Positions 461 to 62,015 of a stretch of DNA of 64,000 bases are shown here, one piece after another (position 1 is the first letter of the stretch; each line of letters opens with the position of its first letter). A program made the translations under genes and the position numbers. This DNA is from Aerococcus urinaehominis. GTDB lineage: Bacteria; Bacillota; Bacilli; Lactobacillales; Aerococcaceae. The notes beneath the pieces were generated by a model. That model worked only from the letters and a program-made list of their open reading frames with translations, had not been told where the DNA came from and searched no databases. Where the stretch lies: NCBI RefSeq assembly GCF_001543245.1, contig NZ_CP014163.1, positions 1,532,387 through 1,596,386 of the forward strand, given 5' to 3'.

Positions 461-650
461 ACAGGGTGCGAGACGCGGCGTTCAGGCATGGCCATTGGAA
501 GGAAGCAGACCAATAGCTGAAAGCTATTGTGTCAGATTTCTGAAGTGGCGACATGCCTGCTGGGGTCCAACTAAGGGTGTGAGCCCCGGCTGTTTGTATA
601 CCTATAATAGCGAAAGCCCGGGGCTTATGCTCCAGGCTTTTTGCTATCTT
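461..650 (+). repeat. Stop-codon-adjacent hairpin repeat array A (one full unit plus partial unit)
   Basis: The array begins 4 nt after the stop of the DUF1292 gene with acagggtgcgag. The full unit runs to about 573, where the next agggtgtgag begins (period 111). Within the unit the segment ggcatgg pairs with ccatgcc-like sequence on the far side, and aatagct pairs with agctatt around a short loop. The second unit is partial: it diverges after agggtgtgag and ends in a separate GC hairpin (agccccgg with ccggggct, about 582-624). The rest of the gap up to mltG holds only a TATAAT-like box at about 710-715. The same family occurs at 42.4, 48.0, 58.4 and 61.6 kb. Confidence 0.8.
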
Positions 651-746
651 GTAACCATAACTTAATACTGGTTGACCATCTTGTTCTTTTGTCGCTAGGC
701 TTTTTTAGCTATAATAGAGTATAAGTTTAAATAAAGGAGCGATGGC

Positions 747-1916
747 ATGGCCCGATTTTCTAAGAAGAATCCTAAAGATAACCACGATACGTTGACCCAT
801 ATTGAAAGTGAATTTACGACTAATTACTCAAGCAAAGGCTTACGCCGCCATAACCGTTTGGCTGGTTTTGGCAAGTTTTTTATTAGCTTCCTGGTAGTGG
901 CCCTTTTAGCTGGCTTAGGTGCTGGTGGTTATTATGTTTTAGCTGGTAATCCCTTCACTCAGGGCAAAGAAGTTTCCGTAACCATTCCTGATGGTGCTTC
1001 CAGCCAAGAAATTGGCCAGATTTTAGCTCAGGCTGATGTTGTCGCTGACGGGCCTATGTTTGCCCGCTATATGCGGTTAACTGGCCTGGATAATTACCAG
1101 TCAGGCCAATATACTTTTAGGACTGGTGCCGGTTTTCGTCCAGCTGCCCAAAAGTTGGTTGCTGGCGACCAAGATAATCATTCGGCTAACCAATTAACCA
1201 TACCGGAAGGGACCACCCTTGACCAGGTTGCGAGTATTTTAGCTAAATACACGGGTAAAAGTGAAGATGAGGTCCTAGCCTTTTTAGATGACGACCAGTT
1301 CTTTAGCCAAGCCAAGGCAGCTTATCCAGAACTACTGGCTGAGGTTGCTAACCAAGACCAGGTCCGCCACCGTTTAGAGGGCTATCTTTTCCCAGCTACT
1401 TATAATCTAACACCGGACCAAGACCTGGCTGATATTGTGCTAACCATGATTGACCGGACCGACCAAGTCCGCCTTAAGTATGCTGATGATTTGGCCAAGA
1501 GCAAGCTAAGTTTCCATGAGGTATTAACCTTGGCTTCACTTATTGAGGCTGAGGCACCAGACTTGGAAAACCGGGAACGGATTGCAGGGGTCTTCCTCAA
1601 CCGTTTGGAAATTGATATGCCCATCCAGTCAGATATTTCGGTCCTCTATGCCAACCAAACCCATTCAGCTTATGTGACCATTGAGGATACAGAAACGGAT
1701 TCACCTTACAATCTTTATCAAAATACTGGCTTGGGCCCAGGTCCTTTTAATAATCCGGGGGAAGAGGCCATTGAAGCGGCCCTTAATCCAATTCCAAGTG
1801 ACGACCTATATTTTGTTGCCGATCTAAAGACAGGTAAGGTTTACTATTCGAAAGACTATGAAAGCCATAGTAAACTTGTAGACCAGTATGTTTCTGAGGA
1901 AAATGCTGACCTTTAA
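747..1916 (+). CDS. mltG: Endolytic murein transglycosylase MltG
   Basis: A 389-residue membrane-anchored YceG-like protein. MltG family members cut nascent glycan strands inside the chain and set strand length at the cytoplasmic membrane. One membrane segment is visible at about residues 40-66 (FGKFFISFLVVALLAGLGAG), after a basic cytoplasmic N-terminus. The catalytic core motif LASLIEAEAPDLENRERIAG is present, and the Glu at about 267 aligns with the catalytic Glu of the family. It is followed by the conserved FLNRL and by the NPIPS segment near the C-terminus. ATG 747 is preceded by aaaggag. The gene lies between the DUF1292 gene and udk as in many Firmicutes, although the O-methyltransferase and U32 genes often found here are absent; the U32 pair is at 23-25 kb. 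Confidence 0.94.
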   Translation: MARFSKKNPKDNHDTLTHIESEFTTNYSSKGLRRHNRLAGFGKFFISFLVVALLAGLGAGGYYVLAGNPFTQGKEVSVTIPDGASSQEIGQILAQADVVADGPMFARYMRLTGLDNYQSGQYTFRTGAGFRPAAQKLVAGDQDNHSANQLTIPEGTTLDQVASILAKYTGKSEDEVLAFLDDDQFFSQAKAAYPELLAEVANQDQVRHRLEGYLFPATYNLTPDQDLADIVLTMIDRTDQVRLKYADDLAKSKLSFHEVLTLASLIEAEAPDLENRERIAGVFLNRLEIDMPIQSDISVLYANQTHSAYVTIEDTETDSPYNLYQNTGLGPGPFNNPGEEAIEAALNPIPSDDLYFVADLKTGKVYYSKDYESHSKLVDQYVSEENADL

Positions 1917-2010
1917 GCTGATGATCACTTGATCGAGAAAAGAAAGGAAAAATCCAGGGATTAGTCTTGTCAAATATTGACTGATGCGCTATCATGATAA
2001 CAATGTTTTG

Positions 2011-2042
2011 AGAATGAGTGGATACCTGCTCATTCTTTCTTT
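2011..2042 (+). terminator. Probable rho-independent terminator after mltG
   Basis: Inverted repeat agaatgag (2011-2018) with ctcattct (2029-2036), followed by a T-rich stretch. The stem is only 8 bp and AT-rich, so it is weak. It separates mltG from udk. Confidence 0.5.
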
Positions 2043-2065
2043 ATGTATAGAAATGAGGTAATAGC

Positions 2066-2701
2066 ATGGCTGAACAAATTATTATTGGTGTAACTGGTGG
2101 TTCTGGATCTGGTAAGACAAGTGTCACGAAACAATTGATGTCCCACTTCGACAACCTTTCTTTGGTTTATATTGAGCAAGATGCCTACTATAAGGACCAG
2201 AGTGATAAGCCGATGTCAGAACGGATTAAGACCAATTATGACCATCCCAAGGCCTTTGATATGGAACTTTTAAAAGACCATGTGCGTCAATTAATGGCTG
2301 GCCATGCCATTGATATGCCTGTTTATGACTACAGCCAGCATACCCGGTCTGACCAAACCGTGCATTTAGAGCCTAAAGAAATCATTATTATTGAGGGCAT
2401 TTTAGTATTGGATGATCCTGAGTTGCGTGATTTAATGGATATTAAGGTTTTTGTGGAAACAGACGCTGATGTCCGTATTTTACGGCGGATTGTGCGCGAT
2501 ATGGAGGAACGGGGCCGGACCCTGGAATCAGTTATTGACCAATACCTATCTGTAGTTAAGCCTATGCATGAACAATTTATCGAGCCAACCAAACGTTATG
2601 CCGATATTATTATCCCTGAAGGTGGCAGCAATACTGTGGCCATTGACCTCTTACAAACTAAGCTATCTGCGATTTTATTAGGTAATTCTGCCGAAAAATA
2701 G
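2066..2701 (+). CDS. udk: Uridine kinase
   Basis: A 211-residue protein matching uridine/cytidine kinase, which phosphorylates uridine and cytidine to UMP and CMP in pyrimidine salvage, in the cytoplasm. The P-loop GGSGSGKT is at residues 11-18. The nucleoside-binding region follows ([25 protein letters not shown]), then the lid segment [12 protein letters not shown] and the motif [14 protein letters not shown]. Length equals the family norm. The start is ATG 2066, preceded by gaggta. It sits just before greA, an order seen across Bacillales and Lactobacillales. Confidence 0.96.
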
Positions 2702-2797
2702 TTGTTAGTGAACCGAGAGGGAATATTACTTGAATATTTAGCCAAAGGGTGCTAATCTTAACCCTATATTTTATGATTGTTAGGAGAATGTTAGTAA

Positions 2798-3277
2798 ATG
2801 GATGAAAAAACATATCCAATGACTGAGGAAGGCAAGGCAAAGTTACAAGCTGAGCTGGACCAATTAAAATCAGTTGACCGTAAAGAAATTGTTGAGCGAA
2901 TTAAAATTGCCCGTTCATATGGTGACCTTTCTGAAAACTCAGAGTATGAGGCAGCCAAGAATGAGCAGGCCATTTTAGAAGGTCAAATTTCTAAACTAGA
3001 ACAAATGATTCGTTATGCTGAAATCATTGACCCAGATGATGTTGCCGCTGATGTGGTGAGCTTGGGTAAAAAGGTCAGCTTTACAGAATTGCCTGATGGT
3101 GAAGAGGAAACTTATTCTATCGTAGGTAAGGCTGAAGCTAGCCCCCTAGATGGTAAAATTTCTAATGATTCACCAATTGCTCAAGCCTTAATTGGTCACA
3201 AATTGGGGGAAGAAGTTGAAATTGAATCACCAGGCGGTTCTTTCTCAGTTAAAATTACGGGCGTTGCCCAACTATAA
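2798..3277 (+). CDS. greA: Transcription elongation factor GreA
   Basis: A 159-residue protein of typical GreA length. It rescues backtracked RNA polymerase by stimulating transcript cleavage. The N-terminal coiled-coil carries the acidic tip motif ([19 protein letters not shown]), and the C-terminal FKBP-like domain has the [21 protein letters not shown] pattern. Shine-Dalgarno taggag lies upstream of ATG 2798. A terminator follows directly. Confidence 0.97.
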
Positions 3278-3284
3278 GACTTAG

Positions 3285-3316
3285 AGGGCTTAGGCAGGTT
3301 TGCCGGCCCTTTTTTG
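3285..3316 (+). terminator. Rho-independent terminator after greA
   Basis: The stem agggc-tta-ggca pairs with tgcc-ggccct (3285-3310), followed by a T6 run. It separates greA from the lia operon, whose first Shine-Dalgarno begins only a few bases later. Confidence 0.8.
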
Positions 3317-3331
3317 CTAGGAGGTCCAGCT

Positions 3332-4027
3332 ATGTTTAGGTTATTGCTACTAATTGGCCTGTGTGTCATGCTTGCTAGTCTCTTATTTTCATTACAATCT
3401 AACTGGCTAGCAGCTGTGTTTTTTGCCCTGGCCTTAGCCAGCCTCGCGCTAGCAGCTTGCTGGCCGGCCAACCGTCACCGCTATCGTTACCAAATCCGCT
3501 TGGTTAATCTAGCCTGGTTGGGCTTGGCGGTGAGTTTATTATTGGTTAGCCGCTGGGGGCTGGCCCTGGCCTTCTCTTTAGTGGCTGGCCTAGCCTTTTT
3601 TCTGGTTAGCTACAGGCAGGGCCGGGCGCCTGACCAGGATGCAGTTGAGACACAAGCTTGGCTACATTGGCCGGCTGAATTAGCCAACCAAGCTAGCCAG
3701 CCCCGATTTTTGACGAGTGGCTACCAGTACTTTAGTGTTTTTGGTCCCAATTTTGTAGACTTGGCTTCCATATTTATTGATCAAAGCCAAGACCAGGTAC
3801 AAATTATTTGCTTATTTGGCCGGTTGAAAATTGTTGTCCCGGATGGGGTTGAGCTGGTCTGCCGTTACCAAGCTTTGAGTGGCGACTTGGTCTACCAAGA
3901 CCAGCAGTATTTTATAAATAACCAATACCAGGTGTTGTATCTCGGCCAGGCTAATAGTAATCAAACTCGGCCAGTCCAAGTTGTTGTGACCCAGATCTTG
4001 GGTAAATGCGAGGTGGTGGACTTATGA
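3332..4027 (+). CDS. liaF: LiaF-like membrane regulator of a cell-envelope stress system
   Basis: A 231-residue membrane protein. About four hydrophobic segments fill residues 1-90, followed by a soluble C-terminal domain (VDLASIFIDQSQDQVQIICL ... IVVPDGVELVCRYQALSGDL) that matches the LiaF/VraT C-terminal domain. Family role: it inhibits the cognate kinase LiaS in the absence of envelope damage. I chose ATG 3332 because aggagg lies 7-8 nt upstream; a TTG 18 nt earlier is in frame but has no site. Its stop overlaps the next ATG (ATGA), so it is translationally coupled to liaS. The liaF-liaS-liaR order is diagnostic. Confidence 0.87.
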   Translation: MFRLLLLIGLCVMLASLLFSLQSNWLAAVFFALALASLALAACWPANRHRYRYQIRLVNLAWLGLAVSLLLVSRWGLALAFSLVAGLAFFLVSYRQGRAPDQDAVETQAWLHWPAELANQASQPRFLTSGYQYFSVFGPNFVDLASIFIDQSQDQVQIICLFGRLKIVVPDGVELVCRYQALSGDLVYQDQQYFINNQYQVLYLGQANSNQTRPVQVVVTQILGKCEVVDL

Positions 4028-5058
4028 TTTGGCGACGTTTGTTACGCTTGGTGGCTGTGAATTGTTTATTGCTGGTGGTCGTTTTAGCCCTAGTTTTACC
4101 CGACCAACTGCTTGCCTTAACTGGCCTGACGCCCTGGCAACTTATCCTAACTGGAACAAGGTTGCTAGCGACAATTCTAGCCCTGGGCTTAGTTGGAGGC
4201 TTAATCCAGTACCTGTTATTATTCCAGGGGGAGCGTCAGCTGACTAAAAAATTAAAATTTTTACTTGATCATCACTATGATTATGCTGACCAGCTAGATG
4301 GCCAAGACCAGGTTTACTACGGCCCTAAAATCCAGGCACTATTGGCAGAGTTAAGCGACCAAGCCAAGCATAGCCGACCAGCTAGTGGGGACCAGTTCAG
4401 GGGTGATCAGGCGGACCTGGTGGCTGCAACCATTCAGGCTGAACGACAAAGAATCGGCCGGGAGCTCCATGATTCGGTCTCCCAGCAGTTATTTGCTATG
4501 GCCATGCTCTTATCTACTCTGGACCAGATGATTCCCAGTGACCAGGCTGAGGGCCAGTTAGTAGCCAAGGTAAATGAGATGGTCGCCCAGGCCCAAGCCG
4601 AAATGCGGGCGCTCTTATTACGTTTACGGCCGGTATCCCTGCAGAATCATAGCCTGGTCCAGGGTATTAAGCGCCTGTTTAATGAATTAGATGGCAAGTT
4701 GGCCATCAGTTTAACCACCGATTTGGCGGATATTAGCCTGCCAGCTGAAATTGAAGACCAGCTCTTCCGCGTGGTTCAAGAACTATTGACCAATAGTCTC
4801 CGTCATGCCCAGGCTAGCCATATTCACTGTGCCTTGTTTTATGACCAGGGAATTGTTCTCCGCTTTTCTGATGATGGCCAAGGTTTTGATAGCCAGGATG
4901 ACCATCTAGCGGGCTATGGTCTAAATAATATTAAGCAAAGAATCCAGGATTTAGGAGGCCGGGTTAACTTTAATAGTCAACTGGGCCGAGGTACCCAGGT
5001 GGTCATTAAACTACCAGCCTATTTAAAGATAGAGGAGGAAGCAGACAACCATGATTGA
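4024..5058 (+). CDS. liaS: LiaS/VraS-like sensor histidine kinase
   Basis: A 344-residue NarL-type sensor kinase. Two N-terminal membrane segments (about residues 7-60) are separated by a very short extracytoplasmic loop, typical of intramembrane-sensing kinases. The HisKA_3 motif [20 protein letters not shown] carries the phospho-accepting His at about 149. The ATP-binding domain has the N box ([14 protein letters not shown]) and glycine boxes ([29 protein letters not shown]). ATG 4024 overlaps the liaF stop, and the gene's own stop overlaps liaR by 8 bp. Inferred role: senses cell-wall antibiotics or envelope damage. Confidence 0.9.
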
Positions 5059-5683
5059 TGTGTTAATTGTTGATGACCACGAGATGGTACGCTTGGGCGT
5101 GGCAAGTTTTATTAATATCCAAGCCGATATGCAGGTAGTGGCAGAAGCCAGCAACGGCCAGGAGGGCTATGATTTAGCCATGAGCTACCAGCCAGATGTC
5201 ATTTTGATGGATGTGGTCATGGACCAGATGGACGGTATTACTGCCACCAAAAAAATATTGGCGGACTGGCCCCAGGCGAAAATTTTGATGGTCACTTCAT
5301 TTTTAGATGATGATATGCTTTATCCAGCTTTAGAGGCTGGGGCGGCAGGTTACCTGTTAAAAACCTCGTCAGCCCAGGAAATCGCCCAGGCCATCCGCCA
5401 GGTCGACCAAGGCGAGGAAGTCTTGACGGACAAGGTGTCGGATAAAATCCGGACCGATCAATTTAAAAAGCAGGAAAAAACCAAGCATGATGACCTGACC
5501 AAGCGGGAGCTAGAGGTTCTACTCTTAGTTGCCCAGGGGAAAACCAACCAGGAAATCGCTCAAGACCTCTTTATCAGTTTAAAGACGGTTAAGACCCATG
5601 TTTCTAATATACTGGCTAAGCTAGAGGTTGAGGACCGAACTCAGGCGACTATCTATGCCTTCCAGCATGATCTAGTGAAATAG
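5051..5683 (+). CDS. liaR: LiaR/VraR-like response regulator
   Basis: A 210-residue NarL-family regulator. The receiver domain has the acidic pair D8-D9 and the phosphorylatable Asp54 ([12 protein letters not shown]), Thr at about 82 (MVTSF) and the conserved Lys (LLKTSS). The C-terminal LuxR-type helix-turn-helix reads [20 protein letters not shown] followed by [14 protein letters not shown]. The gene overlaps liaS and closes the operon, which ends at a strong terminator. No target promoter can be assigned from this window. Confidence 0.93.
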
Positions 5684-5696
5684 ATATAATGGTTGC

Positions 5697-5750
5697 ATAA
5701 AAGACCAAATAAGTTAGTTCATTAGGACAACTTATTTGGTCTTTTATAGT
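5697..5750 (+). terminator. Strong terminator after liaR
   Basis: A perfect 19-bp inverted repeat (5697-5715 with 5729-5747, ataaaagaccaaataagtt and its complement) around a 13-nt loop, with T-rich sequence on both strands. Confidence 0.9.
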
Positions 5751-5788
5751 TGTATATATTAATGTCTGTTAAACTGACTAAAATAAAT

Positions 5789-6008: not shown

Positions 6009-6013
6009 AAAAA

Positions 6014-6048
6014 AAGACTGAAGTTTCATCATAACTTCAGTCTTTCTT
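6014..6048 (-). terminator. Terminator of the rpoY-rnjA operon
   Basis: Perfect inverted repeat aagactgaagtt (6014-6025) with aacttcagtctt (6033-6044). Read on the minus strand it ends in a run of T, directly after rnjA. The plus strand also has T-rich sequence, so it may work in both directions. Confidence 0.85.
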
Positions 6049-6057
6049 GTTTATATG

Positions 6058-42430: not shown

Positions 42431-42609
42431 AGCGGTAAAATTCGCAACCTTCCAGTGGTGCATTCCTGAGCGCCAGCCCTCACACCCTTTTTAGTCGGGT
42501 TCGAAAAAGCTGAACTGAAGTCCTTTCATAAAATCCGCCGCAATATCTGCGATATTGGGCGTCTTTTATTCCAAGGATTCAGTTCAAAGCGCTTTTTCTC
42601 ACACCCTTT
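42431..42609 (-). repeat. Stop-codon-adjacent hairpin repeat array B (one full unit plus partial unit)
   Basis: Read on the minus strand, it starts directly after the copY stop TAA: aaagggtgtgag at 42609. The full unit has arms gaaaaagc / gctttttc and gaactga / tcagttc, and a centre caatatc / gatattg. The next agggtgtgag comes 119 bp later (42488), after the linker gaacccgactaaaa. The second unit stops about halfway, near 42431. Confidence 0.8.
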
Positions 42610-43044
42610 TTAGCTATGTTGGTGGCAGTTGCACTGACCGGGTTGGCAGGAACAAGGCACTTGGTCTACCAATTTTTTTGCCTCTAGGCAGGCGAGAATT
42701 TGATCGTGGCCAGCCTGGTCCAGATCAACCTGGTTGATGACTTCCATGACTAATTTGTAGCCATTTTTTTTGCAGGTGTGGTCAGTCAGCTGGTTGATAC
42801 TCTCGGCTAGGGCCTGACTTTCAGAAATGGCGGCCTGGTAGCGGTAATAGTTTTTTTTCTTTTGGGTTTTTACCCAACCTTTTTTAACTAGACGAGCTAG
42901 CAGGGTTTTTATGGTGGTTGCCTGCCAGTCGTTAAAGGCGGTGGCGGCTTGGATGATGGCCTTGCTTTGGCTATCAGGATGGGCCCAGATTATCCGCATG
43001 ATTTCCCATTCCGCTGGGCTGATCATCTCAGCAGTTTCAGACAT
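42610..43044 (-). CDS. copY: Copper-responsive repressor CopY
   Basis: A 144-residue BlaI/CopY-family repressor. The N-terminal winged helix reads ISPAEWEIMRIIWAHPDSQS and TTIKTLLARLVKKGWVKTQK. The C-terminus has the diagnostic metal motif CxCxxxxCxC (CSCQPGQCNC), followed by HQHS. Zn-CopY represses and Cu(I) releases it. Two cop boxes lie in front of copA. The hydrolase gene ends 31 bp upstream on the same strand, so copY is probably cotranscribed with it. Confidence 0.95.
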   Translation of the reverse strand: MSETAEMISPAEWEIMRIIWAHPDSQSKAIIQAATAFNDWQATTIKTLLARLVKKGWVKTQKKKNYYRYQAAISESQALAESINQLTDHTCKKNGYKLVMEVINQVDLDQAGHDQILACLEAKKLVDQVPCSCQPGQCNCHQHS

Positions 43045-47967: not shown

Positions 47968-48006
47968 AAAAAAGTGTCGGTGACTTATAGTCACCGACAC
48001 TTTTTT
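47968..48006. terminator. Terminator after the ATP-grasp gene
   Basis: Perfect 17-bp stem aaaaaagtgtcggtgac (47968-47984) with its complement (47990-48006), T run at the end. It is symmetric and may also stop transcripts from the minus strand. Confidence 0.92.
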
Positions 48007-48009
48007 GTC

Positions 48010-48175
48010 TTTTATGCCAAGAATTTCGTTCAAAGCGCCAAGTCTCACACCCTTTAGTCGGGCTCGCTTTGGCAGACCAGGCGTCCTTTCGCAGAATTCA
48101 AGACAATATCTGACGATATTGCTTGTCTTCTACTCCAAGGTTCCTGGTCTAAGCGCCAAAGCTCACACCCTTATC
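48010..48175 (-). repeat. Stop-codon-adjacent hairpin repeat array C (one full unit plus partial unit)
   Basis: On the minus strand, agggtgtgag starts at 48171, only a few nt after the pbp1A stop TAA (48178-48176). The full unit has arms tttggc / gccaaa, agaccagg / cctggtct, aagacaag / cttgaatt (imperfect) and caatatc / gatattg. The second agggtgtgag is at 48053 (period 118), after the linker gagcccgactaa. The partial unit ends near the ATP-grasp terminator. Its arms are nearly the same as unit D2 at 58514. Confidence 0.8.
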
Positions 48176-50542
48176 TTAGGCTGCTTCTTGGCCGGTTGTT
48201 TGGCCGCCAGTGTTTTGGCCACCGCTATCGGTAGCTGGTGGGGTTGATCCGGCTGGCTGGCCCTCTTGGCCTGTTGTCTGGCCTTGGTCAGGGCTGATTT
48301 CTGTACCGTTTTCTAGACCAGAACTATCACTTGGTTGGTCACTGCTTTCTTGGCTCTGGCCATCAAGGCTAGACGAGCTAGCGGACTGGCTAGAGCTAGC
48401 AGATTGGTTGTAGTTGTAACTAGAAGTGGTCCCCCGGTTTGGTGTATATAAACGAGTGTTTTCAAAATCACCACTATATTGGTCATAGGTTTCTTGGTTA
48501 ACCAGGGATTGGACGACCGAGCTGGTTGAAACTGGTGGTCTGGCGGGACCTGTTTCAAAGGCAATGTTGACCTGGTGGACTGAAGCGGGTTGTTCCCAAT
48601 CATTTGGCCGACCATTGTATTCTACTAGGTAGTTAGCCAGGGTCCTAAAGATTTCACCGGCCAGGTAGGTTTCTTCTAGGCTGAGGTAATGACCAGCTAC
48701 CAATGGTTCGTCGTAGCCTAGCCAAATGGCCATGGCATAGTCAGAAGTGTGACCAGCCATCCAAGCATCAGGAGAAGCATTTAGTGGGATACCCAGTTCA
48801 GCACGTTGGGCTTCTGTATAGTTGGTGGTTCCTGATTTCATGGCTTCTTGGTAAGAAGGAGACCCATACTTGGTCAGGATACCGGTCTTGGTAGAATCCT
48901 GGAGCATATCAGTAATCATGTAGGCAGTTGAATCAGCCATGGCCTGGTTTTGGTCGCGCGATACTTTAACTTCTTTACCGTCAGTCGTGACGAAGTAGTC
49001 GACCGCTTTTGGCTCGTTGTATTGGCCGTAGTTACCCAAGGTCGCATAGGCGGCTGATAATTGGATTGGTGAGATTTCACCACCGATGGCATTGGATTCA
49101 TAGACACCTTGGCCGCCGTTAAGGGAGATGCCCATGCCTTTCATAAATTCATCGGCCTGTTCCAACCCAACTTCCTGTAAGAGTTTCAAGGCCGGAATAT
49201 TCCTTGATCCAATTAAAGCTTGGCGGAGGGTGATTTTACCCTGGAAGCCCAGGTCATAGTTCTCAATGGTGTCACCAGAAGAATAGGTGGCTTTTTCATC
49301 GACAATCGCTGAATCAGTACCATAGTTGAGGTATTCAATGGCTGGGGCATAGTCAATCAGGGGTTTGATTGTAGATCCCACTGACCGGTTGTCAGCTTGG
49401 GCACGGCTGTATGATAGGGCGTCAGTTTGGTTACGACCGCCAAAGAGGGCGACGATGTTTGACGTCTTGGTATCCAGGATAGATACAGCCGCCTGCATAT
49501 CAGGATCAGTAAAGAAGGCACCAACATCATCATTCACTGTTTCGTAGAGATAATTTTGGACATTCATATCCAAGTGGGTATAGATATCTAAACCATCAGA
49601 GAAGATGTCATAGCCCTCTTCTTCGATTTCGGCAATGACCTTTTGAACATAGGCATCAACCACAATGTCGCTATAAGAACGTTCATTTAGGTAATCAATA
49701 TCTAAGAGGTCATCGGTGACTGGCGCCTGGATGGCTTCATTATATTCAGCCTCAGTGATCTTATTGTTTTCCAGCATTTCTTGGAGGACGAGGTTACGAC
49801 GTTCCTTGGCTGCTTCCGGATCAGTATAAGGATTATAGGTATTAGGCGCCTGGGGCATACCAGCCAAGAGGGCGGTTTGGGCCAGGCTTAGTTCATTGAG
49901 GGGCTTGCCGTAGTAGATTTGAGCGGCCGTCCCCATCCCATAAACCCCGTTGGCCATATAGACTTTATTAATGTAGAATTCAAAAATTTCTTGCTTGTCA
50001 TAATGGCGTTCTAGTCTCAGGGCCAGGAAAATCTCCTGTACTTTACGCTTATAAGTCTGGTCCTCTTCATTAGTTGAGAAGACGGATAGCTTGACTAATT
50101 GCTGGGTCAGGGTTGAGCCACCTTGGACAATGCCACCGGCTCTCAGGTTGGCAATAAAGGAACCGATAATGCGGATGGGGTCAAAGCCATGATGGTCTAA
50201 GAAGCGTTGGTCCTCAATTGACGTGACCGCGTCAAAGGTTTTTTGGTCAATTTGACTGGAATCAACAGCGATATGCTCATTCTGGCTGGTTTCATAAACG
50301 ACAGCACCATCTCGGTCATAAACAGTTGATGAGGCCACCCCACGGAGGTCCTCTTCAGAAATATCTGGTGCACTCATGCCCCAAGTAAGGCCGATGCCTG
50401 CTAGGACAACGCCTACGGTTACCACGATAGCTGCCAAGACGAGCAGGACCTTTTGCCAGGTAAAATTAGAAAAATCTAACTTATCCTGGTTGGACCGTCT
50501 GCGCTGGCGGTTGGGACGTGGTCGGTTACCATTTGAACTCAT
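48176..50542 (-). CDS. pbp1A: Class A penicillin-binding protein 1A
   Basis: A 788-residue bifunctional peptidoglycan synthase. A basic cytoplasmic tail precedes the membrane segment at about 31-55. The glycosyltransferase domain shows IEDQRFLDHHGFDP (catalytic Glu at about 110) and GGSTLTQQLVKL. The transpeptidase domain has SVGSTIKPL (SxxK), SRN and KSGTTNYT (KSGT). The C-terminal 110 residues are Ser/Gln/Gly/Thr-rich low complexity, probably threading the cell wall. ATG 50542 follows aggagg. The recU-pbp1A pair is conserved in Firmicutes. Confidence 0.93.
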   Translation of the reverse strand: MSSNGNRPRPNRQRRRSNQDKLDFSNFTWQKVLLVLAAIVVTVGVVLAGIGLTWGMSAPDISEEDLRGVASSTVYDRDGAVVYETSQNEHIAVDSSQIDQKTFDAVTSIEDQRFLDHHGFDPIRIIGSFIANLRAGGIVQGGSTLTQQLVKLSVFSTNEEDQTYKRKVQEIFLALRLERHYDKQEIFEFYINKVYMANGVYGMGTAAQIYYGKPLNELSLAQTALLAGMPQAPNTYNPYTDPEAAKERRNLVLQEMLENNKITEAEYNEAIQAPVTDDLLDIDYLNERSYSDIVVDAYVQKVIAEIEEEGYDIFSDGLDIYTHLDMNVQNYLYETVNDDVGAFFTDPDMQAAVSILDTKTSNIVALFGGRNQTDALSYSRAQADNRSVGSTIKPLIDYAPAIEYLNYGTDSAIVDEKATYSSGDTIENYDLGFQGKITLRQALIGSRNIPALKLLQEVGLEQADEFMKGMGISLNGGQGVYESNAIGGEISPIQLSAAYATLGNYGQYNEPKAVDYFVTTDGKEVKVSRDQNQAMADSTAYMITDMLQDSTKTGILTKYGSPSYQEAMKSGTTNYTEAQRAELGIPLNASPDAWMAGHTSDYAMAIWLGYDEPLVAGHYLSLEETYLAGEIFRTLANYLVEYNGRPNDWEQPASVHQVNIAFETGPARPPVSTSSVVQSLVNQETYDQYSGDFENTRLYTPNRGTTSSYNYNQSASSSQSASSSSLDGQSQESSDQPSDSSGLENGTEISPDQGQTTGQEGQPAGSTPPATDSGGQNTGGQTTGQEAA

Positions 50543-50552
50543 ATATATCCTC

Positions 50553-51179
50553 CTATCTGCCGGCTTGTCGGTCGGCAATTAATTGGTCAACTGCAGCTAG
50601 GTAGTCCAGGTGGGGACTAATCCGCCGGGGGATTTCATAGCCGCAGTCCTTGATTTTGGCAAGTGAGATAGACTTTGCGCCATCAGCTTGGCTGGCCTGC
50701 CAGTCCCTAAATAAATCTTGGTAGGGATAGAGATAGGCCTGGCCCAGGCTGGCAAAGTAGATGATTGTAAAAGTGATCCCACCCTGGTCCTCACACTGGC
50801 CCATATGCCGTAGTTGGTGGCTATGGATATTGTGAAGGGGAAAGCGGGTTTTCTGGTTGGTTTGCTTGGCTTCAAAATCTAAATAATAGCCCTGGTAGAT
50901 GCCATTATAATCGGTAGTTGATGCCTGCCGGTAGTAAGCCTCCCGGATGACCGCCCGTGACCGCTTGGGATAGTCCACTTTAACAATCTGAATGGGGGTC
51001 GGTTTTTTATGGATGACCGCCAGCTTGCGGTTGAGATACCACTGGTTGGACTTGTTGATCATCTCTTCGAGTTTCATCCCCCGTTTAGCAAAGCTGGCTG
51101 TGCCCTGCTGGTTGCTAATTGGTTGGTTGGTTAAGCTGTGGCCAGCCGGTTGGTAGCTAGACCCATCTGGATAGCGCAC
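50553..51179 (-). CDS. recU: Holliday junction resolvase RecU
   Basis: A 208-residue nuclease that resolves Holliday junctions. It begins VRYPDGSSYQPAG, followed by the conserved GMKLEEMINKSNQWYLNRKL, then AVIHKKPTPIQIVKVDYPKR and the active-site region YYLDFEAKQT (D-x-E-x-K). The C-terminal ISPHLDYLAAVD is also typical. The start is GTG 51179, 7 nt after aaggggg. It is upstream of pbp1A with an 11-bp gap, on the same strand. Confidence 0.94.
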   Translation of the reverse strand: MRYPDGSSYQPAGHSLTNQPISNQQGTASFAKRGMKLEEMINKSNQWYLNRKLAVIHKKPTPIQIVKVDYPKRSRAVIREAYYRQASTTDYNGIYQGYYLDFEAKQTNQKTRFPLHNIHSHQLRHMGQCEDQGGITFTIIYFASLGQAYLYPYQDLFRDWQASQADGAKSISLAKIKDCGYEIPRRISPHLDYLAAVDQLIADRQAGR

Positions 51180-55300: not shown

Positions 55301-55338
55301 GGGATCTGGGCCAGCAATTTTATAAGAGGGAGATGCCT

Positions 55339-57246
55339 GTGGCTAACTTTATTCCTAATGAAATTGTGAACCAAATAAAAGCTGAGGCCGATATCGTTGA
55401 TGTTATCGGCCAATTTGTCGACTTGGAAAAGCGGGGCAAGAACCATTTTGGCTACTGTCCCTTCCACGAAGAGAACACCCCCTCTTTTTCTGTCAATGAA
55501 GAAGACCAATTCTTCCACTGCTTTTCCTGTAAAAGGGGGGGCAATGTTTTTAGCTTTTTGATGGATTTGGAAAATTACTCTTTTCCTGAAGCTGTGGAAA
55601 AAACTGCTGAACTAGCTGGCATCCAGGTTGATTTTGACTTTGCCAGCCTCCACCAAGGGGGCCAGCATAACCAGGTCAACGCCAAGCACCAGCGCCTCTA
55701 CCAGCTCCATGCCAAGCTGGCTGACCTCTACCACTATTTGCTGACAGCCACTAAGGCTGGCGACCCAGGTCGGACTTATTTGGCCGAGCGGGGGCTGGAC
55801 CAGGAGACCATTAAAACCTACCAAATTGGCTATGCCCCTGACCAGTCAGACCTGATCTACCAGCAACTCCTGGCTGATGGCTTCACTAATGAAGAAATGC
55901 TGGCGGCTGGGGTCATGGTGGGACATGGCGACCGCCTGCAAGACCGTTTTCGCGGCCGGCTGATTTTCCCCCTCCGTGATGACCAGGGCCGGGTGGCTGC
56001 CTTTTCCGGCCGTTTATTCCAGGACCAGCTGGCTAACGACGAGGCTAGTGGCAGCCACCAGGCCAAGTACCTCAATAGCCCGGAGACCGAAATCTTCCAC
56101 AAACGGGACTTTCTCTTTAACCTGGATCTGGCCAAGCAAGAAGTGCGGCGGTCGGGGCAATTAGTCCTCTTTGAAGGCTTTATGGATGTGATTGCTGCCC
56201 ACCAGGCTGGTTTGAAAAACGGGGTGGCCTCCATGGGGACCAGCCTGACTGACCAACATATCCGGATTTTAAGCCAGCAGACCAAGCAAGTGGTGATCGC
56301 CTATGATGGTGACCGGGCTGGTTTGGATGCCAGCCAGCGGGCCCTGGACCATATCCGCCACCAGGCACCAAAACTTGAGGTCAGCCTGGTGGTCTTTCCC
56401 CAACAGCTGGACCCGGATGACTTTATCCAGCGGGAGGGGGCGGACCGTTTTCGTCAAGTCTTTAGTGACCAGCAGTTAACCCCTTTTAATTTCTTGCGCC
56501 TCTACTACCGGCGTAAGTACAACCTGTCCTTGGAGTGGGGCAAGTACCAGTATATCGAGGCCCTTTTAAGTGAAATTAAGCAGGCCCAGGACCCCCTTAA
56601 GCAGGAAATTTACCTGCAGGAATTGGCCCAGGACACCGATATTTCCTTGGAAACCTTGACCAAGCAACTCCAGCAGCTGGACCTGAGCCAGCCTAGCCCG
56701 TCCGGGTCAGCTGGCCAACCACCAGCGACTAGCGCTTCACCCTATGACCAGGTGAGCCTGGCACCCGCTAAGGCGCGTTCTAATTCGCTATTGGCGGATT
56801 ATTCCTTAGTTGAATTGTCTGAACTCCAGCTTTTCCACTATCTGTTATATGATCCGGAGGCCTGGTTGCAACTCGAATTAAAGGCCCCAGTTTTTATGAT
56901 GGCCACGCCCTTGATGCAGCGACTTTATATCCTGCTAGTGGCCTACCGGGACCAGCTGGCGGACCCCAGTTTACTGGATGCGGGTGACTTTTTAGACCAC
57001 TTGGTCAACCGTGATGAGCAAGAGCGCTTGGTGATTGCCATGCAAATTGGCGGACCAGCCAAGTTAAGTGCTGACCTCTTGACAGATTTATTGTATAATA
57101 TCTCTACCCGGGCCCAACTAGAGGCCCGTAAAGATGAATTACTTTCACAAGCCCAAGAAGCAGGCCTGGCAAATGATTTTAGCCGGCAAGCTGATCTTTA
57201 TACGGCCTACCTAGATGTATTGCGTCAGTTAAAGAAATTATCATGA
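55339..57246 (+). CDS. dnaG: DNA primase
   Basis: A protein of about 635 residues. The zinc-binding domain contains HFGYCPFHEENTPSFSV and FHCFSCKRGGNVFSFLMDLE (CHC2 type). The RNA polymerase core follows, with the Toprim motifs VLFEGFMDVIAAHQAG and VVIAYDGDRAGLDAS. The C-terminal helicase-binding domain is helical. The start is uncertain: agagggag abuts ATG 55333, so GTG 55339 (MANFIPNEIV...) has better spacing and matches the usual N-terminus. rpoD follows 15 bp after. Confidence 0.95.
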   Translation: MANFIPNEIVNQIKAEADIVDVIGQFVDLEKRGKNHFGYCPFHEENTPSFSVNEEDQFFHCFSCKRGGNVFSFLMDLENYSFPEAVEKTAELAGIQVDFDFASLHQGGQHNQVNAKHQRLYQLHAKLADLYHYLLTATKAGDPGRTYLAERGLDQETIKTYQIGYAPDQSDLIYQQLLADGFTNEEMLAAGVMVGHGDRLQDRFRGRLIFPLRDDQGRVAAFSGRLFQDQLANDEASGSHQAKYLNSPETEIFHKRDFLFNLDLAKQEVRRSGQLVLFEGFMDVIAAHQAGLKNGVASMGTSLTDQHIRILSQQTKQVVIAYDGDRAGLDASQRALDHIRHQAPKLEVSLVVFPQQLDPDDFIQREGADRFRQVFSDQQLTPFNFLRLYYRRKYNLSLEWGKYQYIEALLSEIKQAQDPLKQEIYLQELAQDTDISLETLTKQLQQLDLSQPSPSGSAGQPPATSASPYDQVSLAPAKARSNSLLADYSLVELSELQLFHYLLYDPEAWLQLELKAPVFMMATPLMQRLYILLVAYRDQLADPSLLDAGDFLDHLVNRDEQERLVIAMQIGGPAKLSADLLTDLLYNISTRAQLEARKDELLSQAQEAGLANDFSRQADLYTAYLDVLRQLKKLS

Positions 57247-57261
57247 TAGGAGCTGAACTTA

Positions 57262-58392
57262 ATGGCCAAAAAAACAGTTGATGGTGTAAGCTACAGTCAG
57301 GCCGTCAAGGACTTGATTGCTAAGAAAAAAATGCTAGGAGAAATCCACTACCAAGAACTAGCCGATGATCTCGCCCAACCCTACCAGTTAGATGACCAGG
57401 AAATGGACGAACTCATTGACAAGCTTGAGGACCAGGGTATTGCTGTTGTTGATGATGATGGCGGCCCAACCCAGCGTCAATTAAAAAATGAGGACCGGGA
57501 TGATAAAAAGAAAAAGGATAAGGATGATGAGGTTGATGAAACCCAAATTCCTTCTAACGTTAAAATTAACGACCCCGTCCGCATGTACCTTAAAGAAATC
57601 GGCCGGGTAGACCTCTTAACCGCCGACGAAGAAGTGGCCTTGGCCAAGCGGATTGAAGAGGGTGACCCAATTGCCAAGCAAGAATTGGCTGAGGCCAACT
57701 TACGTTTGGTGGTTTCAATCGCTAAACGCTATGTGGGCCGGGGCATGTCCTTCCTTGATTTGATTCAAGAGGGTAACATGGGTCTGATGAAGGCTGTGGA
57801 AAAATTCGACTATACCAAGGGCTTTAAGTTCTCTACTTATGCCACTTGGTGGATTCGCCAAGCCATCACCCGGGCTATTGCCGACCAAGCCCGGACCATC
57901 CGGATTCCGGTCCACATGGTGGAAACCATTAATAAATTAGTCCGCATCCAGCGGCAATTATTACAGGATTTAGGTCGGGAACCTACCCCAGAAGAAATTG
58001 GGGCTGAGATGGACCTGCCAACCGAAAAAGTTCGGGAAATCTTGAAGATTGCCCAAGAACCAGTCTCCCTGGAAACGCCAATCGGTGAAGAAGATGATTC
58101 CCACTTGGGTGACTTTATCGAAGACCAGGATGCGACCAGTCCAGTGGAACATACCTCCCAAGAATTGCTGAAAGAGCAATTAAATGAGGTATTAGATACC
58201 CTGACTGACCGGGAAGAAAATGTCTTGCGCCTGCGTTTTGGCCTTGAAGATGGCCAGTCTAAGACCTTGGAGCAAGTTGGCCAACAATTTGGTGTGACCC
58301 GGGAACGGATCCGCCAAATTGAAGCTAAAGCTTTGCGCAAACTGCGCCACCCAAGCCGGTCTAAACAACTCAAAGACTTCTTGGAAGACTAA
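57262..58392 (+). CDS. rpoD: Primary sigma factor RpoD (sigma A)
   Basis: A 376-residue sigma-70 factor. Region 1.1 is short, with a charged linker (about 76-92). Region 1.2/2 includes [40 protein letters not shown], then [20 protein letters not shown]. Region 3 and region 4 ([20 protein letters not shown], then [20 protein letters not shown]) are intact. It follows dnaG in the classical macromolecular synthesis operon, here without rpsU. A hairpin-repeat array starts at the very next base after its stop. Confidence 0.97.
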
Positions 58393-58660
58393 CAGGGTGT
58401 GAGGCTGGGCGTTTAGGCAGGGACCACTGGAAGGAATTAGTCCAATAGCTGCAAGCTATTGAGACTAATTTCTGAAGTGGCGCCATGCCTGCCCAGCCGA
58501 ACTCGACTAAACCAGGGTGTGAGTTTTGGCGCTTAGACCAGGATCCTTGGAGCACCAGACAAGCAATATCACAGATATTGTCTTGACTGGTGTGAAAGGA
58601 CTGCTGGTCTGCCAAAGCGAACCCAACTAAACCAGGGTGTGAGCTTTGGCACTCAGGAAA
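58393..58660 (+). repeat. Stop-codon-adjacent hairpin repeat array D (two full units plus partial unit)
   Basis: It starts immediately after the rpoD stop TAA with cagggtgtgag. agggtgtgag occurs at 58394, 58514 and 58634, period 120. Unit D1 arms: ggctgggc / gcccagcc, ccact / agtgg, aattagtc / gactaatt, aatagct / agctatt. Unit D2 arms: tttggc / gccaaa, agaccag / ctggtct, tcctt / aagga, aatatc / gatatt. Linker sequences gaactcgactaaacc and gaacccaactaaacc precede the next copy. The third unit breaks off after about 30 bp. Confidence 0.88.
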
Positions 58661-58672
58661 ATTAATGCACAT

Positions 58673-58709
58673 GAAAAAGGCTGTGGCCCTGCGTCACAGC
58701 CTTTTTTGT
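58673..58709. terminator. Bidirectional terminator
   Basis: Stem aaaaaggctgtg (58674-58685) with cacagcctttttt (58695-58707). It lies downstream of the rpoD repeat array and of the convergent small membrane protein gene. Confidence 0.88.
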
Positions 58710-58720
58710 TTATTATGAGT

Positions 58721-58960
58721 TTACTTTAGAAAAACTTGGGTCAACATGAGAAGAAAAATGACTAGGTTGCCTGCGAAAATTGACCAGCGCCACTTTTTAT
58801 CAAAGAGGTTGAGGGCAAAAACCAGGCCCACCAGGGGTATTAATAGACTAATGGTCTGGTTAACCAGGCTGAGTTCTTGGGGCGTCCGGCCCAGTTGCAA
58901 GCCAGCGTAAATCAAACTGAGGGCTGTCATCATCAGGGCGTTGCGTTTCTTTTTATCCAT
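58721..58960 (-). CDS. Small hypothetical membrane protein
   Basis: A 79-residue protein with about three hydrophobic segments (MMTALSLIYAGLQLG; ISLLIPLVGLVFALNLF; SIFAGNLVIFLLMLTQVFL) and a basic start MDKKKRNA. I do not recognise a family. aaggagtgg lies upstream of ATG 58960. It is convergent with rpoD and divergent from murB. Confidence 0.65.
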   Translation of the reverse strand: MDKKKRNALMMTALSLIYAGLQLGRTPQELSLVNQTISLLIPLVGLVFALNLFDKKWRWSIFAGNLVIFLLMLTQVFLK

Positions 58961-59104
58961 ACTTCCACTCCTTAAACTTTACTTTCTTATCATACTTAAC
59001 TTGGTCAAAAAAAGATACTAATTTCTCCTCAGATAGTTATTTAAGCCTTGTTTATGGTAAGATGAAGGGGTACTTTAAAAGAGATAAGATGGGGGATTTA
59101 TAAG

Positions 59105-60007
59105 ATGAATCGCGCTGATTTACAAGCGACCTTTCCTAATAGTGAAATAAAATTTGACGAACCCTTGAATAACTATTCCTATACTAAAACTGGTGGTCCA
59201 GGGGATGCGGTGGCCTTCCCCACTTCAATCCATGAGGTGGCTGCCCTGGTTAAGTATGCCCAAGACCATGATATCCCAGTCCTTGTTTTGGGTAACGCTT
59301 CTAATATCATTGTCCGTGATGGCGGCGTGGCTGGTTTGGTCTTAATTTTAACCAAGATGAAGACCGTGGTTGTTAATGACCAGGAAATTGTTGCGGATGC
59401 CGGGGCCGAAATTATACGGGTCAGCCAAATTGCCCGCGATCACAGTTTAACTGGCTTGGAATTCGCGTGTGGCATTCCTGGCTCAATTGGCGGCGCCATT
59501 TATATGAACGCGGGCGCTTACGGTGGCGAAGTCCAAACCGTGGTTAAGTCAGCAACCGTCGTCAGTCCAAGTGGCGATATTAAAGAAATGTCCAACCAGG
59601 ATTTAGATTTTGCCTACCGCCACTCTAGTATCCAGGATACGGGTGACATTGTGGTGCAAGTGACCTTTGCACTTACCCCTGGCGACCAGGCAAAGATTAC
59701 CGCTAAGATGGCTGAACTCACTGATTTGCGAGAATCCAAGCAGCCCTTGGAATATCCTTCATGTGGCTCAGTCTTTAAACGGCCGGCGGGATACTTTACT
59801 GGCAAGTTGATCCAGGAAGCGGGCTTGCAGGGCTACACCATTGGTGGCGTCCAAGTGTCGAAAAAGCATGCTGGTTTTATGGTTAACATTGATGAAGGTA
59901 CGGCAACTGACTATATTGACCTGATTGCTCATGTCCAAGCAGTCATCAAGGAAAAAGACGGGGTCGACTTGGAGCCTGAAGTGAGAATTATTGGCCGCGA
60001 AAAATAG
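59105..60007 (+). CDS. murB: UDP-N-acetylenolpyruvoylglucosamine reductase
   Basis: A 300-residue FAD enzyme of peptidoglycan precursor synthesis. FAD-binding motifs are [14 protein letters not shown] and [36 protein letters not shown] follows, then the active-site Ser in [15 protein letters not shown] and Glu in [11 protein letters not shown]. It is the type IIb form common in Gram-positives. The next gene starts 11 nt after its stop. Confidence 0.96.
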
Positions 60008-60017
60008 GAGGGATGAG

Positions 60018-61622
60018 ATGGACAAGACAGCCTGGATTACTTTCCGTAATTTTAACTTTTCCTATGCCCAGGAAGGGGAGCCGACGCTTAGAGACCTGAA
60101 TATCTCGCTCTACCGCGGGGAAAAATTATTAATTCTGGGGGCCTCAGGTTCAGGTAAGTCTACCTTTGTCCGCGCCCTCAACAATAGCCTGGGCCAGGCG
60201 CCCTACCAGGGCCGGCTAGAAGGTCAAGTGGACCGGCAACCAGTTGATGTGGTCACCATTACTGGTGGCATGGTGGCTGCTTATATAAATGACCGGCAAC
60301 TTGACCTCTTTAGCCAAAATGATCTAGTGGTCATGATGGACCAGCTAGCAGCCAAGCAGGGCCTTGAACTAGCTGGGGCGAATAAGGTTTATGTTTTTGA
60401 TGAACCCCTGTCTAACCTGTCGCCACGGATGGCCCACCAGTTTATTGATGCCCTGGATGACCTCTACGTGGCCAAGGGCAAGACCATTGTGATTGTTGAA
60501 CACCGGCTGGAACAGGTCATGAGCCGGCATATTGACCGGGTCTTGGTCTTCTCTACAGGGCAAATTGTTTATGACGGGCCCTTGGTCCAACTCTTTAAGT
60601 TGCATAACTTGATTGAGTTTGGTATCCGGGAACCCCTCTATATTAAGGCTTTGAATTACGCCGGTTATCCCTTGAACCAGACCCATAATTTGACCTCAGC
60701 CAAGTATATCTTTGGTAAAAACATGCGGCAGACCTTGGAAAATTGGGTCAACTTGATTCCTAGCATGGCCAAGACCAGCAAGGGTGAGGAGCTGGTTCGC
60801 TTGACAGGGGTGACCTACCAGTACCCTGATACTGGGCGGCAGGCCCTCAAGGGGGTTGACCTCTCGATTTATCAGGGGGAAATTGTAGCTTTGGTAGGTG
60901 GCAATGGGTCGGGGAAAACAACCCTAGCAAAGATCCTCCACCAGGACCTGGCGGCTGACCAGGGGACTTATTACTTAGATGGTCAGCCCTTGGACCACAT
61001 TTCACCTAGCCAGGCCCATGACCAGGGAATTGTCTATATTCCTCAGGATGTCAATGCCAGCCTAGGTGATGACCAGGTCCGGGTCAAGGACTATCTGCAG
61101 GGGATTTTAGACCAAGCGGGTCAGACCAGCCTGGACCAGAGTGCTTTTAAGGATATTCAAGAAGTCTTAAAGGTTCTGGGATTGAGCTTTGCTGGTGATA
61201 TGCCGATCTATACCCTATCTTATGGGCAAAAGCACCGCTTGTTGATGGCCGGGGCCTTGATTTTGAACCCGCGCTTGATTATTATGGATGATCCCACCCA
61301 GGGCCAGGACTACAAGCATTATGTGGAACTCATGCAGTACCTGACCGACCTCAATCAGGAGTATGGGATGACCATCCTGATTAATACCCATGACGTTTAT
61401 GTTCTCTTACAATATGCTAGCCGGATTGTGGTGATTGAAGCTGGTCAAATTATTGCCGATGGTGAGGCAATCAATATTGTGACCGACCCCAAAGTGGTCC
61501 GCCACTCCGCCTTGACCGAGTCCAGCCTCTACCTGTTCGCTAGGCAAATTGGTCTAGTTGACCCCTATGGCTTTATGCGCAAGCTCCTGGACTATGACCG
61601 AGAAATGCAAAGATTTATGTAA
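60018..61622 (+). CDS. ECF/CbiO-type ABC ATPase with two domains, first one degenerate
   Basis: A 534-residue protein with two ATPase domains in tandem, as in YkoD. Domain 1 keeps Walker A GASGSGKST and Walker B VYVFDEPLSNLSP, but only about 80 residues separate them (about 120 is normal), and no LSGGQ signature or clear Q-loop can be found. Domain 2 has Walker A GGNGSGKTT, Q-loop YIPQDVNA, signature LSYGQKHRLLM and Walker B IIMDDPTQGQD, with Asp in place of the catalytic Glu. No T or S component gene is adjacent. ATG 60018 follows ggaggg. A long hairpin-repeat array follows its stop. Confidence 0.8.
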   Translation: MDKTAWITFRNFNFSYAQEGEPTLRDLNISLYRGEKLLILGASGSGKSTFVRALNNSLGQAPYQGRLEGQVDRQPVDVVTITGGMVAAYINDRQLDLFSQNDLVVMMDQLAAKQGLELAGANKVYVFDEPLSNLSPRMAHQFIDALDDLYVAKGKTIVIVEHRLEQVMSRHIDRVLVFSTGQIVYDGPLVQLFKLHNLIEFGIREPLYIKALNYAGYPLNQTHNLTSAKYIFGKNMRQTLENWVNLIPSMAKTSKGEELVRLTGVTYQYPDTGRQALKGVDLSIYQGEIVALVGGNGSGKTTLAKILHQDLAADQGTYYLDGQPLDHISPSQAHDQGIVYIPQDVNASLGDDQVRVKDYLQGILDQAGQTSLDQSAFKDIQEVLKVLGLSFAGDMPIYTLSYGQKHRLLMAGALILNPRLIIMDDPTQGQDYKHYVELMQYLTDLNQEYGMTILINTHDVYVLLQYASRIVVIEAGQIIADGEAINIVTDPKVVRHSALTESSLYLFARQIGLVDPYGFMRKLLDYDREMQRFM

Positions 61623-62015
61623 AAGGGTGTGAGAATCGGCGTTTAGGAATGAATCACTGGAAGGAATCGGACCAATATCTGCAAGATATTGTGTCAGATT
61701 TCTGAAGTGACTTCATTCCTGCCGATTCGAGCCCGACTAAAACAAGGGTGTGACAAGAAGCGTTCTGAACTGAATCGTTGGAGCTAGGCAGACCAATAGC
61801 TGCAAGCTATTGCGTCAGCCTAGTGAAATGACTTCAGTTCAGCTTCTAGGAACCCGACTAAAACAGGGTGTGAGGCTGGGCGTTTAGGCATGGACCACTG
61901 GAAGGAATTAGCCCTATAGCTGATAAGCTATTGCGACTAATTTCTGAAGTGGCGCCATGCCTGCCCAGTCTAACCCGACTAAAACAGGGTGTGAGGCGCA
62001 GCAGGCTAACTTGCT
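61623..62015 (+). repeat. Stop-codon-adjacent hairpin repeat array E (three full units plus partial unit)
   Basis: It starts directly after the ATPase gene's stop TAA. agggtgtga(g/c) occurs at 61624, 61745, 61866 and 61986, periods 121, 121 and 120. E1 arms: gaatcggc / gccgattc, aggaatga / tcattcct, aatatct / agatatt. E2 arms: gaagc / gcttc, tgaactga / tcagttca, ctaggc / gcctag, aatagct / agctatt. E3 arms: ctgggc / gcccag, aggcatgg / ccatgcct, ccact / agtgg. Linkers read gaacccgactaaaac or close variants. The fourth unit is partial. Confidence 0.9.

Follow-up and report, generated by a model that had tools for sequence, protein, structure and literature searches.

A stretch of 64,000 nucleotides from the genome of Aerococcus urinaehominis (NZ_CP014163.1, positions 1,532,387 to 1,596,386; hereafter the window) carries five arrays of a hairpin repeat of approximately 115 nt, which probably belongs to a family of small non-autonomous mobile elements that is widespread in Lactobacillales, shares the design of the Efa-1/EFAR repeats of Enterococcus faecalis, depends on its structure, and is linked to terminators. 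Copies are scattered, and the arrays combine units of different subfamilies in head-to-tail order. Whole modules are gained or lost, and one relative (G165) shows a recent multiplication of copies. The genome containing the window, referred to as G000, consists of one contig of 1.83 Mb.

The five arrays comprise eight complete and five truncated copies of the unit, with one truncated last unit per array. A unit spans from GGGTGTGAG to CCCGACTA, is mostly 110–121 nt in length, and is joined to the next by a junction of the form ..CCCGACTA(A)nCA GGGTGTGAG, with variations. On the forward strand, array 1 consists of a 110-nt hairpin unit with a shortened arm (464–573), located 7 nt past the stop codon of the open reading frame (ORF) at 124–456, and a truncated second unit (GGGTGTGAGCCCCGGC, 575–590), which leads into a common 3′ tail. 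Arrays 2 and 3 are on the reverse strand: in array 2, a hairpin unit (42492–42606) located 3 nt past the stop of ORF 42610–43044 is accompanied by a truncated second unit (42448–42487), and in array 3, a hairpin unit (48055–48170) located 5 nt past the stop of ORF 48176–50578 is accompanied by a truncated second unit (48007–48052). Forward-strand arrays 4 and 5 both begin 2 nt past a stop codon, that of ORF 57262–58392 and that of ORF 59991–61622, respectively; the former contains two hairpin units (58395–58509 and 58515–58629) and a truncated third (58635–58660), and the latter contains three (61625–61739, 61746–61860, and 61866–61981) and a truncated fourth (61987–62002). All five arrays are located where the original prediction had placed them, and its description of a constant junction between units and of a start 0–8 nt after the stop codon, in the direction of the gene, holds in the window, with variations in the junction and with distances of 2–7 nt in sense orientation in every case.

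The fold is supported as the feature that is conserved in the units. The four window units that were folded each form one long imperfect hairpin on the sense strand (z −7.3 to −9.5 compared to 200 shuffles), as had been proposed for the inserts. In an alignment (A1) of 27 units, taken from the window and from exact-motif loci, RNAalifold identified 39 pairs, 26 of which changed on both sides in at least one sequence, compared to 20.0 in shuffles (1 of 500 shuffles reached 26). Paired cells amounted to 94.5% in this alignment vs 75.7% when shuffled (0 of 500 shuffles reached the observed value) and dropped to 31–42% when partners were slid by 1–3 columns. A wider set of 109 distinct sequences, which was fitted to the model and hence leans toward the model structure, has changes on both sides in all 39 pairs, with 91.1% of cells paired vs 32–44% when slid. 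The compensatory arm changes that had been claimed are upheld by the shuffle and column-slide controls, and the stems covary strongly. Unpaired columns of the 109-sequence set are more conserved than paired columns (0.92 vs 0.64 bits, P = 0.008), although the difference is not significant in the genus-level set (P = 0.15), and by reading, the most strongly fixed positions lie in asymmetric internal loops and their closing pairs. The units are not intrinsic terminators themselves because each is followed, by reading, by an A-rich linker and not by a T run.

The motif AGGGTGTGAG occurs 60 times in G000 while its reversed control does not occur, and the repeat is therefore not due to chance. A covariance model built from the 27 aligned units (R1), which matches these units by construction, yielded at least 90 matches in G000 at E ≤ 0.001 with 150 of 805 candidates scored. 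Together with 20 hand-picked motif sites, these matches form 57 clusters, of which 50 have a model match and 22 have two to four. None of the 57 clusters is strand-mixed, and the 22 that have more than one model match all run head-to-tail. Linkers between successive full units (n = 34) are 1–6 nt in length, most commonly AAACA or AACA. The mosaic composition is apparent from 84 full units in 48 arrays: among the 55 units in multi-unit arrays, only seven have their best match within their own array, and neighboring units are 62.7% alike (36 pairs) vs 65.1% between arrays. Local duplication was accordingly rejected as the main source of the arrays, although some exists. The mosaic composition and single-strand clusters suggest that new units are added head-to-tail beside old ones and are mostly not copies of their neighbors.

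Evidence for mobility comes from G165, where nine loci share a unit with 0–1 differences in 119 nt. The spacer and terminator that accompany it also have 0–1 differences in 51 nt at eight of the nine loci (eight differences at the ninth, L218), whereas the flanks, 100 nt on either side, are 19–38% identical to those of the reference copy. At one of these loci, behind a gene read as lysS from its C-terminal residues, the orthologous place has no unit in two congeners, as judged by eye and with a second model (R2), and these unit-less loci match at 79% and 83% identity; the lysS-locus query had no counterpart in another two congeners. Nine loci with almost the same copy between dissimilar flanks, together with the absence in two congeners, thus require new insertions. 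Between the sister genomes G003 and G011, in which aligned blocks are mostly 93–97% identical, 20 locus pairs are shared out of 30 and 31 loci, and the number of units differs at common loci, in one case with an A-B-A-B-A pattern by reading. G000 shares five neighbor-gene pairs with G003 and six with G011, for which an estimated, not computed, chance expectation is two to three. Moreover, two plasmid stretches of 98.7–99.5% identity differ by a 126-nt module at a repeated junction, and this module is a weak R2 match (E = 6e-4).

Placement in G000 was examined with a simple ORF caller for 55 of the 57 clusters, leaving out two lone motifs. Codirectional spacers contain 22 sense and 15 antisense arrays, convergent spacers contain 15 sense arrays, and divergent spacers contain three; without six arrays that overlap ORF calls, the counts are 18 sense, 14 antisense, 15 convergent, and 2 divergent. 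Two of the three divergent-spacer arrays (718994 and 1820400) look like ORF-calling errors by reading. Divergent spacers represent 26–30% of intergenic bases (estimated in the window with arrays removed) and only 3 of 55 arrays (P ≤ 9e-5), indicating a deficit of arrays in these spacers. Sense arrays start within 10 nt past the stop codon in 25 of 37 cases and within 15 nt in 31 of 37, and TAA is somewhat over-represented among the stop codons preceding arrays (27 of 31 vs 157 of 244 for the fetched regions as a whole, the 31 included; P = 0.014). An A immediately precedes the unit in 95% of the 37 sense arrays and in all 18 antisense arrays. The clusters are also unevenly spread along G000, with 23 of 57 in the last 300 kb (1.53–1.83 Mb) and one between 1.19 and 1.53 Mb.

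The expectation that arrays would be non-randomly placed relative to genes across the genome was borne out for their position beside stop codons, whereas their orientation is only weakly biased, as the 22:15 ratio in codirectional spacers does not differ from an even split (P = 0.32). The direction of the upstream gene, which had been proposed as a rule, is not one, since 15 of these 37 arrays are antisense, and the units are thus not simply sense devices of 3′ untranslated regions (UTRs). Sense to antisense counts in codirectional spacers elsewhere were 11:7 in G003, 9:4 at the named loci, and 11:6 in the sister genome G011. Among the antisense G000 arrays with a tail (loose pattern), 8 of 11 end 1–34 nt from the stop codon of the opposite gene, so an array can lie against a stop codon whichever way it is oriented. 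Antisense units lie farther from the stop codon in G003 and G011, at 64–305 nt in seven G003 cases with tails not removed.

A common 3′ module, consisting of ..GACTATGCTGCTAATATTCGTATAATAGCGAGAGCC and a terminator-like hairpin with a T run, was detected at 39 of 55 G000 arrays using a loose pattern, and a DNA search with the tail gave 49 matches at E ≤ 0.01, some of which represent both strands of one palindrome. In array 1 of the window, this tail occupies 591–642 on the forward strand, with the terminator-like hairpin and its T run at about 613–642. Other arrays close, by reading, with a unit truncated at varying points and then a different terminator. Terminator-like hairpins with T runs were likewise recognized by reading in array 3 (47969–48006, reverse strand), directly after the truncated unit, and on the forward strand in arrays 4 (58674–58707) and 5 (62040–62070). 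A perfect TATAAT, located at 603–608 in the window and also found in other tails, lies a few nucleotides before the terminator stem and is a candidate promoter element.

The common tail is not confined to the hairpin arrays. A second repeat family in G000 consists of tandem units of about 73 bp with the palindrome AAGTAGCTTAAGTGGTGGAGTTAAGCTACTT, and some of its clusters end in the same tail and terminator. Nine clusters were found in the fetched regions, which had been chosen around hairpin arrays; they are located at about 674837–675420, 732402–732767, 1754506–1754943, and 1814889–1815254 of the G000 contig and at five more places (including L136, L140, L161, and L164). In addition, a hairpin module of about 42 nt (GCTATAGCCGTAGCATTTTCAATGCGTACGGATATAGTATGC) substitutes part of the unit at seven places in G000 (75325, 218533, 619843, 752401, 1103608, 1121511, and 1819485).

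The units have a broad but patchy range. R1 detected them in 22 of 60 genomes including G000. Within the genus, 11 of 15 genomes were positive; the other four were negative with both R1 and R2, two of them being 85% complete. In an order-wide scan with R2, in which at most nine candidates were scored per genome, 91 of 395 sampled Lactobacillales genomes and 32 of 80 genera contained units, and a fuller count in 20 chosen positive genomes gave 1 to 96 units each. A scan of 37 named stretches gave R1 matches in 33, from Trichococcus palustris, T. flocculiformis, Jeotgalibaca caeni, Fundicoccus ignavus (unit on the 39106-bp contig NZ_WJQT01000023.1), Desemzia incerta, Globicatella sulfidifaciens, Carnobacterium jeotgali, a record named Streptococcus sp. 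263_SSPC, and a metagenome-assembled genome (MAG) of Sporosarcina. Two Planctomycetes records, one of Gammaproteobacteria, and one of Mycobacterium in the same scan had no R1 match. The record named Streptococcus sp. 263_SSPC (loci L102 and L109) is probably misnamed, with a host in the window's own family, and the unit in the Sporosarcina psychrophila MAG (L122), which is named outside the order, is on a 6.6-kb contig and may reflect contamination or transfer.

Plasmids are among the carriers. A query with an Enterococcus-type unit matched 110 plasmid records, 107 of which are from Enterococcus, and Lactococcus plasmids are also represented. R2, which was not trained on plasmid units, matched five plasmid copies at E = 4e-13 to 5e-10 and a sixth only weakly, and the copies on E. 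faecium plasmids match it. The surroundings of a second plasmid copy matched mainly an IS1216 stretch and were left out of the comparison. The window unit had no match in plasmids, one Carnobacteriaceae-type unit had none in plasmids or phages, and two other unit types had none in plasmids. Carriage by phages was rejected, as patterns matched 4 + 58 viral stretches and none of these 62 contained an R2 unit. Rfam gave no match in the window at gathering scores, and for eight further loci from several genomes at E ≤ 0.1 it gave only a microRNA model on both strands of one L192 stretch, at 35 bits vs a cut-off of 70.

In the reading as non-autonomous mobile elements, the module is one imperfect hairpin of about 115–119 nt, followed in many copies by a short spacer and a terminator hairpin and then ending at the T run. 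An enzyme or complex acting in trans may read the folded strand and insert further copies at gene ends, behind an A-rich site (AAANA) and frequently next to a unit or terminator that is already there. Insertions in promoters and operons would be selected against, which would shape the remaining distribution, while the carried terminator would render an insertion behind a gene nearly neutral, and any effect on mRNA ends would be a by-product. The mobilizer is not a Y1 (REP-type) transposase of G000. A broader version, which we regard as possible but doubtful, is that the units represent an order-wide class of mobile hairpins, the identity of which would reside mainly in the fold and in roughly a dozen and a half fixed positions within or beside loops; an undescribed non-Y1 enzyme would read the folded strand, as RNA or single-stranded DNA (ssDNA), dock at gene ends, and build head-to-tail mosaics, and EFAR of E. 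faecalis would be a local branch.

Several observations weigh against mobile elements of this kind. No target duplication and no transposase was found, the search having covered Y1, and there is no clean pair of filled and empty sites: of two candidate pre-insertion sites in G011, both without a whole unit by R2, one keeps a remnant of a unit start and the other differs by about 470 nt. An empty-site query from Trichococcus palustris matched only 1 of 12 other congeneric genomes, at 65%. Insertion into terminator stems through complementarity of the flanks was convincing by eye in G165 but failed against swapped flanks, as a unit's own flanks are not more complementary than swapped ones (permutations reaching the observed value: 874 of 5000 in G165, 3483 of 5000 in G025, and 2946 of 5000 in G000), with A/T-rich flanks limiting the power of this comparison. 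The seven same-array best matches exceed the mean of 1.4 obtained with shuffled labels (4 of 2000 reach seven), which points to some local duplication. On the sense strand, G-U pairs are more frequent than A-C mismatches (49:13 in A1 and 247:85 in the second alignment, A3), as an RNA role would likewise predict; the unit-sense strand thus seems to be the constrained one, which fits RNA or one strand of ssDNA. Both structures were derived with RNA pairing rules, and A3 was fitted to one of them, so both ratios lean that way. An RNA role would also give the mild sense excess of arrays, which amounts to 42:26 (P = 0.07) when G000, G003, and the named loci are pooled and G011 is left out.

These last two observations bear on the idea that the units are host-serving RNAs of the 3′ UTR, kept in sense orientation, the hairpins of which shield transcripts from 3′ exonucleases or aid termination. 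The start of most sense arrays within 15 nt past the stop codon, a tail that includes a terminator-like hairpin in 39 of the 55 arrays, the G-U excess, and the location of the unit 5′ of a terminator, where a 3′ stabilizer is expected, would all agree with such a role. It is nevertheless unlikely, given the 15 of 37 antisense arrays in codirectional spacers, positions that mostly differ from those in G003 and G011, and the four genus genomes with neither an R1 nor an R2 match; mosaic arrays and recent dispersal would also be unexpected for a gene-bound regulator. That old repeats are now spread by recombination and gene conversion alone, with no active mobility, is quite improbable: copy number does vary at loci shared by sister species, and a module was lost or gained at a repeated junction between plasmids, but the near-identical copies at nine unlike-flank loci and their absence in two congeners need new insertions. 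Copying through RNA, in which a transcript of the unit and terminator would be reverse-copied and re-inserted so that transcription termination sets the end of the mobile piece, would suit the common stretch in G165, which ends in a T run past the terminator stem, and a sense-strand fold that is conserved and tolerates G-U pairs. However, plain targeting of terminators accounts for the same boundary, many G000 arrays end in truncated units with other terminators, and no reverse transcriptase is tied to the copies, no search for one having been made; we consider this route extremely unlikely.

Repetitive extragenic palindromic (REP) elements and bacterial interspersed mosaic elements (BIMEs), moved as ssDNA by a Y1 transposase (IS200/IS605-like or RAYT), offer another comparison, since the units are palindromes with conserved unpaired positions, a strand-specific fold, and head-to-tail insertion after a fixed A-rich left flank. 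Y1 was found in 5 of 15 genus genomes, each of which also has units, whereas the four genomes without units all lack it (P = 0.23; 15 genomes are too few for significance). G011 has 18 Y1 matches compared to 4 in its sister G003 and none in G000. On the other hand, the Y1 transposase (PF01797) has no match in six unit-bearing genomes (G000, G001, G002, G010, G013, and G014, of which G001 and G010 are not single-contig), and by reading no GTAG/CGTC tag is present at the unit ends in alignment A1. REP/BIME elements are likewise dispersed palindromes recognized through their structure, but, in the accessible parts of the sources, they are 20–40 nt in length, tagged, and Y1-linked (PMC8266576; PMC3733652), in contrast to the units of 110–121 nt in G000, which lacks Y1. 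Movement of the units by a Y1 transposase is therefore very unlikely.

Mobile elements with the Efa-1/EFAR design remain the preferred interpretation. The original prediction knew of no named family with this design, which was too strong a statement, as the accessible part of the description of Efa-1 in E. faecalis presents the same anatomy in an intergenic repeat of 163 nt with 65 (18) copies and paired adjacent stem-loops, then reported as new (Petrillo et al., 2008; PMC2267715). EFAR is counted among the miniature inverted-repeat transposable elements (MITEs) of enterococci, according to the accessible text (PMC3733652). As far as these partial descriptions go, the likeness includes an intergenic location, tens of copies, and a length of about 163–170 nt as two adjacent stem-loops, compared to a 119-nt hairpin and a spacer/terminator of about 51 nt in G165; the bacterial order is also the same, with units here located on Enterococcus plasmids as well. 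EFAR and Efa-1 are reportedly the same repeats, and a 2007 paper is said to describe EFAR as a variable assembly of several sequence types, which resembles the mixing of unit subfamilies within arrays. EFAR reportedly also inserts into or replaces stem-loops and keeps part of the target stem at its ends, whereas no such retention was detected here in three genomes. Differences are the two to four tandem matches in 22 of 57 G000 clusters and the range of 32 of 80 sampled genera. Likened by description, the units appear to share the Efa-1/EFAR design and may be classed as a variant of this type without being proven EFAR.

Other known systems are less similar. BOX elements of S. pneumoniae, S. 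mitis, and S. suis, as described in the accessible part of the source, are also modular, structured, and mobile-looking, with a variable number of middle modules and enrichment between convergent genes, but they are built from three distinct module types (A, B, and C), with terminal inverted repeats as well as target duplications (PMC3049150). No A-B-C order is present here; by reading, one unit type repeats and the 3′ tail alone differs. SPRITE of S. pneumoniae is a terminator-like repeat near gene 3′ ends, although the same partial source gives it an 18-bp duplex and a uridine-rich tract and describes no long bulged hairpin and no arrays (PMC3049150). A CRISPR array was ruled out, as the junction alone is constant and the inserts are homologous hairpins, and linkers of 1–6 nt leave no room for an integron-type coding cassette (an integrase was not searched for). 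The accessible portions of a MITE review (PMC10969869) and of a REP survey (PMC12306157) make no mention of Enterococcus, and no description of this hairpin repeat in Aerococcaceae or across the order was found in the literature covered, which excludes most subscription papers and includes some sources only in part.

If the units are indeed mobile elements of this kind, the Efa-1/EFAR repeats of one species may join one structured mobile family across an order of medical and industrial use, and a mobilizer that recognizes shape more than sequence would await discovery. With near-identical copies, sister species, and plasmid pairs available, this can be tested directly. In unit-rich genomes, many gene 3′ ends carry strong hairpins that are likely parasitic, which matters for RNA-seq and for terminator predictions.

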